A stretch of DNA of 64,000 nt from an uncultured Sphingomonadaceae bacterium (lineage in GTDB: Bacteria > Pseudomonadota > Alphaproteobacteria > Sphingomonadales > Sphingomonadaceae), in contig CANMGU010000002.1 in NCBI GenBank assembly GCA_947497455.1, positions 1,272,506 through 1,336,505 of the forward strand, given 5' to 3'. Position 1 is the first letter of the stretch, and each line of letters begins with the position of its first letter. Below the pieces are notes generated by a model. The model did not search any database. It had not been told where the DNA came from and was given only the letters and a program-made list of their open reading frames with translations. Of this stretch, positions 27,098 to 32,797 are shown one piece after another. The position numbers and the translations under genes were made by a program.

Positions 27098-29110
27098 ATG
27101 ACCATCAGCACGAAGTTCAAAACTTTATTGGCCATCACTTTGTTAGGTAGCTCTAGTGCAGCAAGCGCCGAAGAAAGCAATGGCCTCGCACCTGAGGCAA
27201 CGGCCGCTCAGACAGAACTCTCGTTCAGAGATATTCCACTTCTTGAGAACGCTTTTATCGATACCGCGCCAACAGATAGAAACGATGGTATTTCGGTGGG
27301 CGAGTTGGGCATTGATGGCGGTAGTAAAGATAGGGTCGTCGCTCTGGCACGGGAGATTGCTGACGGCAAGCACGGTAAATATGACAGCCTGCTTGTCGCC
27401 CACAAGGACAAGCTTCTGTTTGAATCCTACTATCTGCGTGGTCGGATCAATCTGGCACACGGACAAGCGTCAGCCACGAAAGCCTACACCAGTCTGGCCT
27501 TGGGTCGCGCCATTCAACTGGGTTACCTGACTATGGCTGATCTGAACAAGCCGCTCATCAGTTTCCTCGACGAATTGGACCACTCAAAGCTTGTCGAGGG
27601 CGCAGAGAAAATTACACTCCACAAGGCGCTCACCATGCATGGTGGGCTTAATGTGGATCGTGAGCGCTGGGAAGAGCTTGAAAAGAATCCCGCGCCGCTG
27701 CAGGGCCAAGGCCTGGTTCAGACACTACTTGAGCACTCGGGACCCATTATCGACGAATCCCAGATCTATAGGTATGGCAACTTCAATCCGAATTTGGTGA
27801 TGGCCGTCATTGATGCTGTCGTGCCCGGCACCGCTAAGGATTTCATCAAGAAAGAAATTTTGGATAAATTGGGCATCGCCAATTACAGTTGGGACACGCA
27901 TGTTAGCGGTCTGCCACAAGCGGGGTGGATGGTGAGCATGACATCGCGTGACATGCTCAAATGGGGCAGTGTTGTGCTCAACGAGGGCAAATGGAACGGC
28001 GAGCAATTTGTTCCTGCCGACTATCTTGCCAAAGCCACCAGCGGTCTTGTAAAACCTACGGAAGACTGGATGCCCGACACCTATCGCTACGGCTATTTCT
28101 TCTATCAGGCACCTATGGTGGTCGGTGACAAGAGCTACAACGCAACCTTTGCCTGGGGTGGCGGCGGACAACGTATCATCGTTGTAGATGAGCTTGATCT
28201 AACCATTGTGATCACTGGCCATGACAGAGAAGATCAAATCATGGCTCAGATATCAAATGCTGTCCTACCGGTTTTTGCCAAAGTGAGCAGCGGAAGCGAT
28301 GTCAGGGATGAAATATCAAAACTCAAGGGCCCCTATCTCGGTCAAAAGCCTCCCGGTTTAACGCCTGAAGCTTTTGCGCCTGGTATCGTTTCATTGAAGG
28401 GCTGGGAATATGGCGGCGTCTTCACACCTGATACAAACGAATTCTACTTTCTCAGACGAAATGAGGTTAGTAGCAAACAAGAATTCGTGCTTTTTCAACA
28501 TGAAAACAATCAGTGGCGTGAGTCGGTTGTTTCTCCGAGAGTTGGGCAAGCTTTCATCTCTCCAGATGGCAAGATCATGCATTTGGGAAAACGATATAAG
28601 GAGCGCAGACTGTCTGGATGGTCAGAGATCAAAGGCCTTGGTTCTCCTTTCGAAGAAATATCCATTATGCGCCTTACCTCTTCAGCTAAAGGTACTTTAG
28701 TTTTTGACGAATTCGCTAGAGATGGAAATGCCGTTCTGCGATATTCACGGCTGATCGAAGGTAAGCGCGAAGCACCAAAACCGCTTAGCAAAGAGATCAA
28801 TACCGGAAGATCGAATGCCCACCCCTTCATTGCTCCGGACGAGTCCTATATTCTATGGGATAGCAAACGGGAGGGCGGATATGGCAATTCCGATATTTAT
28901 CTCAGTTTCAGGCAGCAGGACGGTTCATGGGGAGAAGCTATCAACCTGGGCGACAAGATAAACACAGACGCATGGGAGGCAGCTGCAAGTGTAACGCCCG
29001 ATGGTAAATACCTTTTTTTCAACAGGAATATGGGCTCAGACAAATACGAAAATGTGGATATATTTTGGGTGGACGCTCAAGTTATCGAGAATCTCAGACC
29101 TAAAATGTAA
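27098..29110 (+). CDS. Secreted serine hydrolase fused to a TolB/PD40-type beta-propeller
   Basis: The 670-residue exported protein (signal about residues 1-24, ending SAASA) joins two parts. Residues about 85-395 are a class C beta-lactamase-fold hydrolase with nucleophile SATK (125-128), YGN near 226 and WGGGGQ near 358. Residues about 405-670 carry PD40-like blades such as EYGGVFTPDTNEFYFLRR, HPFIAPDESYILWDSKR and ASVTPDGKYLFFNRN. The first part may cleave an ester or D-amino-acid peptide while the propeller binds a partner. AGGAG precedes the ATG. Confidence 0.85.
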   Translation: MTISTKFKTLLAITLLGSSSAASAEESNGLAPEATAAQTELSFRDIPLLENAFIDTAPTDRNDGISVGELGIDGGSKDRVVALAREIADGKHGKYDSLLVAHKDKLLFESYYLRGRINLAHGQASATKAYTSLALGRAIQLGYLTMADLNKPLISFLDELDHSKLVEGAEKITLHKALTMHGGLNVDRERWEELEKNPAPLQGQGLVQTLLEHSGPIIDESQIYRYGNFNPNLVMAVIDAVVPGTAKDFIKKEILDKLGIANYSWDTHVSGLPQAGWMVSMTSRDMLKWGSVVLNEGKWNGEQFVPADYLAKATSGLVKPTEDWMPDTYRYGYFFYQAPMVVGDKSYNATFAWGGGGQRIIVVDELDLTIVITGHDREDQIMAQISNAVLPVFAKVSSGSDVRDEISKLKGPYLGQKPPGLTPEAFAPGIVSLKGWEYGGVFTPDTNEFYFLRRNEVSSKQEFVLFQHENNQWRESVVSPRVGQAFISPDGKIMHLGKRYKERRLSGWSEIKGLGSPFEEISIMRLTSSAKGTLVFDEFARDGNAVLRYSRLIEGKREAPKPLSKEINTGRSNAHPFIAPDESYILWDSKREGGYGNSDIYLSFRQQDGSWGEAINLGDKINTDAWEAAASVTPDGKYLFFNRNMGSDKYENVDIFWVDAQVIENLRPKM

Positions 29111-29840: not shown

Positions 29841-29988
29841 AACCGGTTAGGGCGGATCGGCAAAATTGATGATGGCATTCAAAATCGCCGAATAGCATGG
29901 CTATGTGAACCAGTCGATTTGTTCAATACCTTCGCAGAACAGCTGCATATATCCAAACATCCCGCAAATTTAAAAATCTTGGATCATC

Positions 29989-30495
29989 ATGGAAATTGAA
30001 ACAGAACGGTTACTGCTACGTTATCTTCGTCAGGACGACTTCGAGATATACGCAGACTATTATGCAAACCCCGAAACAGCTCGATTTGTTGGCGGTCAGA
30101 AAGACCGTGCATCCGCTTGGAGACATATGGCCGCTGTAGCAGGGCATTGGTTGTTAAAGGGATTTGGACAGTGGGCTGTGGAAGAGAAGTCTTCCGGTAA
30201 AATGATAGGCTTGATCGGGCTATGGGAACCGGAAGGCTGGCCGGAACTGGAAGTCGGCTATTGGCTTGTCAATGCCGCGCATGGCAAAGGCTATGCCACC
30301 GAGGCGACGGAGCGTGCTCGGAAATATGCCTATGAAGAACTGGGAGCGACAACGCTTGTCAGCTACATTGATCCAGCAAATGAACCATCCAAACGCGTCG
30401 CTGAAAGAGTGGGGGCAAGACTTGATGAGACAATTGAGCTTTTGGATCTCGGGCCACATTGTGTTTATCGCCATCCAAGCCCCGGGCTATCGTAG
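29989..30495 (+). CDS. GNAT acetyltransferase, RimJ/RimL-like
   Basis: The 168-residue acetyl-CoA-dependent N-acetyltransferase starts METERLLLRYLRQDDF, the usual opening of the RimJ/RimL group. The acetyl-CoA loop is HGKGYATEATERARKYAYEELG, followed by SYIDPANEPSKRVAERVGA. A paralogue with the same layout lies at 32294-32797. The substrate may be a ribosomal protein, an antibiotic or another amine; the sequence does not tell. Confidence 0.9.
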   Translation: MEIETERLLLRYLRQDDFEIYADYYANPETARFVGGQKDRASAWRHMAAVAGHWLLKGFGQWAVEEKSSGKMIGLIGLWEPEGWPELEVGYWLVNAAHGKGYATEATERARKYAYEELGATTLVSYIDPANEPSKRVAERVGARLDETIELLDLGPHCVYRHPSPGLS

Positions 30496-30595: not shown

Positions 30596-31309
30596 ATGGG
30601 ATGGTCTGGAGAAATAGTTTTTGGCGACACATATGTCGCGTATTTTGGTGCTCCGGATCAGAATTGTATCCATGCGCACGCTGTCTATCAAATCGTCCTT
30701 AGTGCGAACAAACCAGCCACGGTGGTTGATAAAAATGGAGTCCATTACAAGGGATCGGCATTGCTCATCCATCCGCTTGTACCCCATGCAATTTTGGGGA
30801 GCGACCCGGTCACGTTGATCTATCTAGATCCTCAATCTGCGTTCGCCTTAGATCTTGTCAGTAATATTAATATTGGTGAGATAGTTGAGATATCGCCGGA
30901 CGCATTTCCACTAAGGCTTTCCGATACGCCTGACAAAATTGCAAATAAACTCAAATCTTATACAGATTTCTCGTCAAATCACATCGATGCACGTTTGAAG
31001 AATGCCCTTAACAAGTTAAGCGCAGAACCAGGAGAAATCTCCGTCGCTCACGCTGCTAATCTTTCAAATATATCGCAATCGCGGCTTCGTACTCTGGCAC
31101 GAGAACAAATTGGCGTTCCCTTGTCGACCTGGCTCCTTTGGCGCAAACTTGAAAGAGCGGCGCGTGAAGTGGCAAAAGGAGAAAGCCTTGCCGAAGCGGC
31201 GTTAGCGGGCGGGTTTTCGGATCAGGCTCATTTCACCAGATGTATGCGCAGAATGTTTGGAGTATCCCCTACAGAAACAATAGACAGCCTGTCTCGCTCC
31301 AAAAAATAG
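30596..31309 (+). CDS. AraC family transcriptional regulator
   Basis: The 237-residue protein has an N-terminal cupin-like sensor region (residues 1-135) and a C-terminal AraC DNA-binding domain with two helix-turn-helix units: ISVAHAANLSNISQSRLRTLAREQIGVPLSTWLLWRKLERA and SLAEAALAGGFSDQAHFTRCMRRMFGVSPTE. It is followed after 74 bp by the fatty-acid-hydroxylase-family gene whose leader holds a perfect hairpin, a possible regulatory target. Confidence 0.9.
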   Translation: MGWSGEIVFGDTYVAYFGAPDQNCIHAHAVYQIVLSANKPATVVDKNGVHYKGSALLIHPLVPHAILGSDPVTLIYLDPQSAFALDLVSNINIGEIVEISPDAFPLRLSDTPDKIANKLKSYTDFSSNHIDARLKNALNKLSAEPGEISVAHAANLSNISQSRLRTLAREQIGVPLSTWLLWRKLERAAREVAKGESLAEAALAGGFSDQAHFTRCMRRMFGVSPTETIDSLSRSKK

Positions 31310-31357
31310 ACTGATGGATAGTCAATTCGTTCAAGAATGGCCCTGCCCAAATCCGCT

Positions 31358-31391
31358 ACAGACATATTCACGAAGGAGTGAATATGTCTGT
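31358..31391 (+). promoter_or_regulatory. Perfect 14-bp hairpin enclosing the Shine-Dalgarno and start codon
   Basis: ACAGACATATTCAC (31358-31371) and GTGAATATGTCTGT (31378-31391) are exact inverted repeats around the six-base loop GAAGGA. The Shine-Dalgarno AGGAG spans the loop and stem edge, and the ATG of the next gene (31384-31386) lies inside the right arm. In the mRNA this would block ribosome access; as DNA it is also a perfect dyad that a dimeric regulator could bind. Confidence 0.8.
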
Positions 31392-32232
31392 CGTAAATAT
31401 TATTCTGCGCTATCTTTACGCACCATTATTCTTCTTGGGCTTTGTCGGTTGCGGTCTGGAGATTATCGGAACGGGCCATACCAAGCTCTGGTTCTTACCC
31501 TTGCTTGCAGGAGCTGTTCTGATTTCATTTATCGCAGAACGAGTTACTCCATACGAACCGGTGTGGAACCTTCCACAAGCAGATCAAAGGCGTGACTGGA
31601 TTCATGCGGTAGTAAATGAGCTTTCGAACGTATCGGCCATCGCTTTGATACCATTCATAGCGATGCTAGATTTGGGGATAGACAAGTGGCCAGCGCAATG
31701 GCCGCTTTGGGGACAACTTTTATTTGCAATCCTGATAGCGGATTTAGGCATCACTCTGAGCCATTATGCGAGCCACAAGATAAACAGTCTTTGGAAATTG
31801 CATGCCGTTCATCACAGTGTTGATCGCTTATATGGTTTCAATGGATTGATGAAACACCCGCTTCATCAGGCTATAGAATTGATGGCAGGAACAACGCCAT
31901 TGCTTTTGCTTGGTATCCCGATGGATGTTGCGTCGTTATTGGGCTTTGCCGTCGCCATTCAATTACTCTTGCAGCATTCGAATGTGGATATGCGGATTGG
32001 CCCGTTTATAATATTTTGGGCAGTCGCGCCCGGACATCGGCATCATCATCGTGCCTCAAGCACAGACGGGGACGTCAATTTTGGTTTCTTTACAATGACT
32101 TGGGACCACATCCTGGGGACATATGTCGGTCGCGGCGATCAACCACGTGCGGGAGAGTTGGGCATAGCAGGTCGAACCGACTATCCGGTCACCTATGTCC
32201 GCCAGATAATTGAACCATTTCGAGCTGGATAA
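31384..32232 (+). CDS. Fatty acid hydroxylase / sterol desaturase family protein
   Basis: The 282-residue integral membrane di-iron oxygenase has four or more helices and the eight-histidine signature: HYASH, then HAVHHSVDRLYGFNGLMKHPLHQ, then HRHHH near residue 219. Family members hydroxylate or desaturate lipids, sterols or carotenoids. The ATG at 31384 is preferred (AGGAG five bases before); the GTG at 31378 is in frame. Start and ribosome site lie in a perfect hairpin, so translation is likely controlled. Confidence 0.9.
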   Translation: MSVVNIILRYLYAPLFFLGFVGCGLEIIGTGHTKLWFLPLLAGAVLISFIAERVTPYEPVWNLPQADQRRDWIHAVVNELSNVSAIALIPFIAMLDLGIDKWPAQWPLWGQLLFAILIADLGITLSHYASHKINSLWKLHAVHHSVDRLYGFNGLMKHPLHQAIELMAGTTPLLLLGIPMDVASLLGFAVAIQLLLQHSNVDMRIGPFIIFWAVAPGHRHHHRASSTDGDVNFGFFTMTWDHILGTYVGRGDQPRAGELGIAGRTDYPVTYVRQIIEPFRAG

Positions 32233-32293
32233 CTTGCAAAGGGAAATCGATTAAAATGTTCAGATGTGTTTTCACGTCACTGCGGCAATATAT

Positions 32294-32797
32294 ATGATCC
32301 CGATCATAGAAACCGAACGCCTTGTTTTGCGAGCGCCCGGCGCAGAAGATTTCTCTGTTTACAGAGATTTTTTTGCTGATGCAGGGGCTTCAATAGCCTA
32401 TAATGGCCCATTGTCGGCCGGGGATAGCTGGAGGATGCTGGCGACTGACATAGGGCATTGGGCCCTGCGCGGTTATGGCAGGTGGGCGGTGACAATAAAG
32501 AAGACCGGCGAAATGGTAGGGGGATGCGGTTTATGGTGGCCCGAAGCCTATCCGAGGTCAGAATTGACGTGGTGGATCATCGCTTCAGCGCGGCGACAAG
32601 GGTATGCCCGCGAAGCGTCGGTTGCAGCGATAAAATTTGGATATGAAACGCTGGGTTGGCCGATAGTTGAGACTCATATAAATGACGAAAATCTTGCTGC
32701 GCGTCATTTAGTCAAATCGCTAGGCGGAGTTTTCATGCTTCGGGAAAAATTCCCGGATGGATTGTCGAGAGATATATTCCAATTGCCAAAAGGTTAG
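32294..32797 (+). CDS. GNAT acetyltransferase, RimJ/RimL-like paralogue
   Basis: The 167-residue product begins MIPIIETERLVLRAPGAEDF and keeps the acetyl-CoA loop as ARRQGYAREASVAAIKFGYETLG. It resembles the protein at 29989-30495 along its length, including GHWALRGYGRWAV versus GHWLLKGFGQWAV. The two therefore look like a diverged duplication flanking the AraC and hydroxylase genes. A start at 32264 is possible but adds residues not seen in the paralogue. Confidence 0.88.
   Translation: MIPIIETERLVLRAPGAEDFSVYRDFFADAGASIAYNGPLSAGDSWRMLATDIGHWALRGYGRWAVTIKKTGEMVGGCGLWWPEAYPRSELTWWIIASARRQGYAREASVAAIKFGYETLGWPIVETHINDENLAARHLVKSLGGVFMLREKFPDGLSRDIFQLPKG

Follow-up and report, generated by a model that had tools for sequence, protein, structure and literature searches.

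A hairpin over the start codon of an AraC-linked hydroxylase gene as a possible start-site-dependent translational lock

In the window, as we call the whole 64,000-nucleotide stretch of DNA from an uncultured Sphingomonadaceae bacterium analysed here, the start codon of a membrane hydroxylase gene lies inside a perfect 14-bp hairpin, and we tentatively interpret this palindrome as a start-site-dependent translational lock. The hairpin, the araC and hydroxylase genes, the predicted promoter and the two AraC-type boxes described below lie on the + strand of the window. The left arm is proposed to hold the -10 element and start region of an AraC-activated promoter, and the right arm holds the hydroxylase start codon. 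A transcript begun upstream, most plainly by read-through from araC, would contain both arms, fold into the 14-bp hairpin and remain untranslated. A transcript from the gene's own promoter would begin late in the left arm, form no hairpin and be translated; the enzyme would thus be made only on activation of its promoter by AraC. Binding and activation by AraC, the point of transcription start and the silence of the long transcripts are what we infer from the features described here. The hairpin noticed in an earlier note on this DNA is confirmed, and its interpretation shifts from an RNA thermometer or an AraC-binding dyad to a lock of this kind.

The left arm, ACAGACATATTCAC (31358–31371), is the exact complement of the right arm, GTGAATATGTCTGT (31378–31391), from which it is separated by a 6-nt loop, GAAGGA (31372–31377); it overlaps the -10 hexamer and the transcription start that are predicted below. 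The loop includes the first five of the six bases of the Shine-Dalgarno (SD) sequence AAGGAG (31373–31378), and the right arm takes in its final G, the spacer, the ATG (31384) and the initial codons. The earlier statement that the hairpin hides both ribosome site and start codon is therefore correct for the start codon, which lies in the stem with its flanks, and not for the ribosome site, which is unpaired save for its last G. Among perfect hairpins with loops of 3–12, this was the only one in the 64 kb of the window with arms longer than 10 bp, the runner-up having 10 bp, and the longest in 400 kb of stretches sampled from the same genome as background was 13 bp. By our own arithmetic, approximately 0.002 such hairpins are expected per 64 kb of random sequence. 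The folding z-score was -3.96 for a 111-nt stretch compared with dinucleotide shuffles, and -6.3 for positions -40 to +20, the lowest among the 66 homologous leaders scored.

A repeat family or recombination site was rejected, as the genome contains the whole dyad only once and the half-site matches are scattered, few of them at plausible gene starts and none forming a second dyad. An intrinsic terminator was likewise rejected, only five of the 14 stem pairs being G-C; CGTAAATATTAT follows with no T run, and the site was absent from the terminator scan. An out-of-frame open reading frame (31314–31595) starts 5 nt past the araC stop and runs through the hairpin. Its translation would melt the stem; it probably occurs by chance.

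Among 193 gene starts from the window and the sampled stretches of the genome, that of the hydroxylase was the costliest to open, at 21.3 kcal/mol for the region from SD to AUG (median 7.3) and 10.7 kcal/mol for the AUG alone (median 1.4). These calculations support occlusion of translation initiation by the modelled hairpin. The stem alone was calculated at -20.6 kcal/mol at 37 C, and the computed fraction of open AUG was 0.02% at 25 C, 0.06% at 37 C, 0.1% at 42 C and 1.6% at 70 C. The folding-energy check proposed for the RNA thermometer thus spoke against it; a stem this stable would stay shut over the physiological temperature range, and a thermometer of the ROSE or FourU type was rejected. 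A search of the window stretch against Rfam gave no match even at E 10, bar one chance miRNA.

The hydroxylase gene (31384–32232) encodes a 282 amino acid membrane enzyme of the FA_hydroxylase family (Pfam PF04116, E 7e-19). Its nearest NCBIfam model is the ornithine-lipid hydroxylase OlsE (NF052566), but the score of 147.9 bits is far under the curated cut-off of 475, and identity with OlsE was rejected although the PF04116 assignment holds. The AraC-family regulator (30596–31309; Pfam HTH_18) ends 74 bp before the hydroxylase ATG, with no terminator-like site between the two genes in the scan. It is a conserved partner: an AraC homologue flanks the hydroxylase in 88 homologue loci, 42 codirectional upstream, 41 convergent downstream and 5 divergent. 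The link drawn earlier between the two genes is borne out by this conserved module, which occurs in Proteobacteria and Actinobacteria. Within the window's genus, a close hydroxylase homologue was found in only one other sampled species (L004, 54% identity). Two genes for GNAT acetyltransferases (29989–30495 and 32264–32797), mutually 38% identical, flank the araC-hydroxylase pair; homologues of either were not found in the other hydroxylase loci searched. Positions 27098–29110 encode one protein fusing a serine beta-lactamase-like domain (PF00144) with a PD40 beta-propeller repeat.

An asymmetric box lies upstream of the hydroxylase gene in every clade examined, Actinobacteria included, with a consensus near AGYCGATTCGTTCAAG, also written AGYCnnTTCGTTCAAG; the version in the Pseudomonadaceae group is TTGCGCCGTTTGTTCAAGC. 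In the window the predicted AraC box is AGTCAATTCGTTCAAG (31320–31335), with its TTCAAG at 31330–31335, -54 from the ATG, and it is the sole zero-mismatch match to AGYCNNTTCGTTCAAG in the genome. Since both the sequence of the box and the regulator that it accompanies are conserved, the box is best read as the binding site of AraC. The dyad had itself been put forward as a site for AraC, but the linked AraC family has this separate TTCAAG-containing box, and the sequence of the dyad is not conserved. A second AraC-type box, AGTCGATTTGTTCAAT (29912–29927), occurs 67 nt before the GNAT acetyltransferase gene at 29989–30495 and suggests that the same AraC protein may also control this GNAT gene. 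Apart from these two boxes, nothing in the window matches AGYC-N6-TTCAA[GT].

When 100 leaders were aligned on TTCAAG, a NANNNT pattern began 26–27 nt past the start of this motif in 54 of 55 leaders from the Pseudomonadaceae group and in 25 of 45 others. In an alignment anchored on the ATG the pattern was scattered; its spacing is fixed to the box and not to the start codon. The A and T of NANNNT are the strongest positions of -10 elements. Together with the fixed spacing, this points to NANNNT as the -10 element. In the window the predicted -10 hexamer is TACAGA (31357–31362), which begins 27 nt after the start of TTCAAG, overlaps the left arm and is without the usual final T. The start region predicted from the aligned leaders for the AraC-dependent promoter is 31366–31371, approximately 7 nt past the -10; in the window that distance would put the start near 31369, or more broadly near 31368–31371.

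The cost of opening the SD-AUG region, modelled at 30 C, was approximately 21 kcal/mol for transcripts starting anywhere from 31250 to 31358 and 5.4–6.2 kcal/mol for those starting at 31368–31370. Long transcripts with both arms would hide the start in the manner expected of a lock. Because starts at or before 31358 are costly, whereas those late in the left arm are cheap, the hairpin belongs to those transcripts that begin upstream. The earlier note had set against its own reading a start that keeps the left arm out of the RNA; comparative evidence predicts such a start for the gene's own promoter, and the hairpin would then matter only in transcripts begun upstream of it.

Relatives do not share the perfect arms, and the closest homologues (~60% identity) lack a perfect match. 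Nevertheless, hydroxylase leaders folded better than control gene starts of the same loci (mean z -1.01 versus +0.11, p 2e-5), an effect driven by the convergent, mostly Pseudomonas loci (mean z -1.74) and by the window. In the Pseudomonadaceae group, the SD pairs with the segment that directly follows the -10. Four SD positions set the register, and the five pairs beyond them were Watson-Crick more often than with permuted partners, with all four pair types occurring at each. When 23 leaders were aligned independently, 91.8% of cells were paired, compared with 85.5% on shuffling (0/500) and 38–50% on sliding, and changes on both sides numbered 10 against 2.8; when a leader's own promoter-start and ribosome-site segments were compared with swapped ones, z was -10.8 in the Pseudomonadaceae group (0 of 2000 swaps as low), -2.8 in the other loci with the window left out (6 of 2000) and -3.5 in the non-codirectional others, these swap and shuffle counts not being strict probabilities because the sequences are related. 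Pairing that is conserved while the sequence is not argues for a structure in a nucleic acid strand over a protein operator. Counts of G-U and A-C mismatches (23 versus 5; permuted 24.5 versus 7.3) did not separate RNA from DNA.

The compensatory changes sought in homologous leaders were thus present in the Pseudomonas group, but the nearest codirectional relatives did not follow. In the codirectional non-Pseudomonas loci without the window (n = 11), pairing was not significant (704 of 2000 swaps as low) and the starts were no more occluded than controls, so that a hairpin over the start in all homologues was rejected. The window consequently stands out from its own group, which keeps a mutational accident in consideration. 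The topology also differs: the SD takes part in the pairing in Pseudomonas, but the window has it in the loop. The upstream gene of the P. fluorescens-type group seems to run divergently; read-through is accordingly an incomplete account there, and is doubtful as the sole explanation in every clade.

In loci L046-L235 (Pseudomonadaceae and similar), the promoter start region and the SD form a covarying 9-bp hairpin; eight homologue loci scanned with Rfam gave no match at gathering scores. This hairpin is a candidate for a separate, new family of RNAs or leaders. That the related Pseudomonas hairpins vary in sequence and keep their pairing suggests genuine regulation by such an element, and no sensing of temperature. 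We further propose, with less assurance than for the lock in the window, that in part of the range of this AraC-regulated lipid-hydroxylase module in Proteobacteria and Actinobacteria covariation preserves the complementarity between the -10/start segment and the ribosome site. Translation would then depend on the position of the transcription start, and the module would be sealed against all transcription but that from its own promoter. This is best shown in the Pseudomonadaceae group.

For the window, the lock is favoured by the fixed distance from box to NANNNT, the fall in opening cost with start position, the locus-specific pairing with its five covarying pairs and the lack of a terminator-like site before the gene. 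Against it stand the missing final T of TACAGA, the nearest codirectional relatives, the apparently divergent upstream gene of the P. fluorescens-type group and the different placing of the SD in Pseudomonas. One alternative is the accident, in which a recent template-switch (palindrome-perfecting) event copied the right arm to the left, with no regulatory role or as a tolerated burden. Only this genome has the perfect match; it is missing from the closest homologues, whose group has no significant pairing; yet homologues elsewhere have a covarying hairpin at the same promoter-to-ribosome-site position, and the gene seems intact. We regard such an accident as unlikely. Rather improbable, too, is start-site switching similar to that of pyrC, by which the regulated promoter would start at several positions in the left arm according to nucleotide pools or growth, the upstream starts hiding the start codon and the downstream ones leaving it free. 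The steep dependence of opening cost on start position (21 to 5.6 kcal/mol between 31358 and 31369) fits this, and as switching is independent of the upstream neighbour it suits the divergent Pseudomonas group. However, heterogeneity of starts is not known here, and the window would need starts only ~0–4 nt past the predicted -10.

The two readings of the earlier note now appear far less probable than these. A thermometer, or a hairpin at the mRNA 5' end opened by a ligand or sRNA, would suit a product that acts on membrane lipids, and the Pseudomonas stems have G-U pairs and do pair the SD. We nevertheless consider it very unlikely, given the stability of the window stem and the scarcely open AUG at 42 C, the lack of any Rfam thermometer or riboswitch match, and a predicted start that strips away most of the left arm. 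An operator in the DNA, bound by AraC or by some other dimeric regulator, would account for a symmetric dyad that overlaps promoter and start codon and adjoins araC. The AraC family has its own asymmetric box, however; the arms vary freely among relatives yet stay complementary, the dyad is single-copy and its half-site is scattered, so that this reading is also highly improbable.

If the lock is real, an ordinary chromosomal enzyme gene shares with transposons and phages a means of sealing against stray transcription, and the sealing persists through covariation while the sequence drifts. The analysis also provides a transferable prediction of the AraC box, -10 and transcription start for an uncharacterised AraC-hydroxylase module, on which word searches of the literature found no paper beyond two incidental hits. 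Several known systems invite comparison. In IS200, as cited in PMC3196728, a stem-loop occludes the ribosome site just before the start codon, a block of translation similar to that proposed for the window; unlike the window, the IS200 element also carries a transcription-terminating stem. RNA thermometers such as ROSE and FourU share with the window a hairpin over the translation start, but the perfect 14-bp stem, the SD in the loop, the excessive stability and the lack of an Rfam match set the window apart. The transposase genes of IS10 and IS50 are reportedly shielded from read-through transcription, with a promoter in or beside the left arm and ribosome site and start codon in the right, such that long external transcripts fold and go untranslated. 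Here, unlike IS10 and IS50, the gene is that of a chromosomal AraC-regulated enzyme with an activator box, and there is no mobile element. The ribosome site of genes e, soc and 49 of phage T4 is said to be hidden in long transcripts, and the short ones begun at promoters within the stem to be translated, a similar arrangement with late promoters in place of an AraC-type promoter. In pyrC of enteric bacteria, the start site is switched, and the exact nucleotide at which transcription begins governs a hairpin at the 5' end; there is no evidence in the present case of nucleotide sensing or multiple starts. The principle of the lock is thus already known from IS10/IS50, phage T4 and pyrC.
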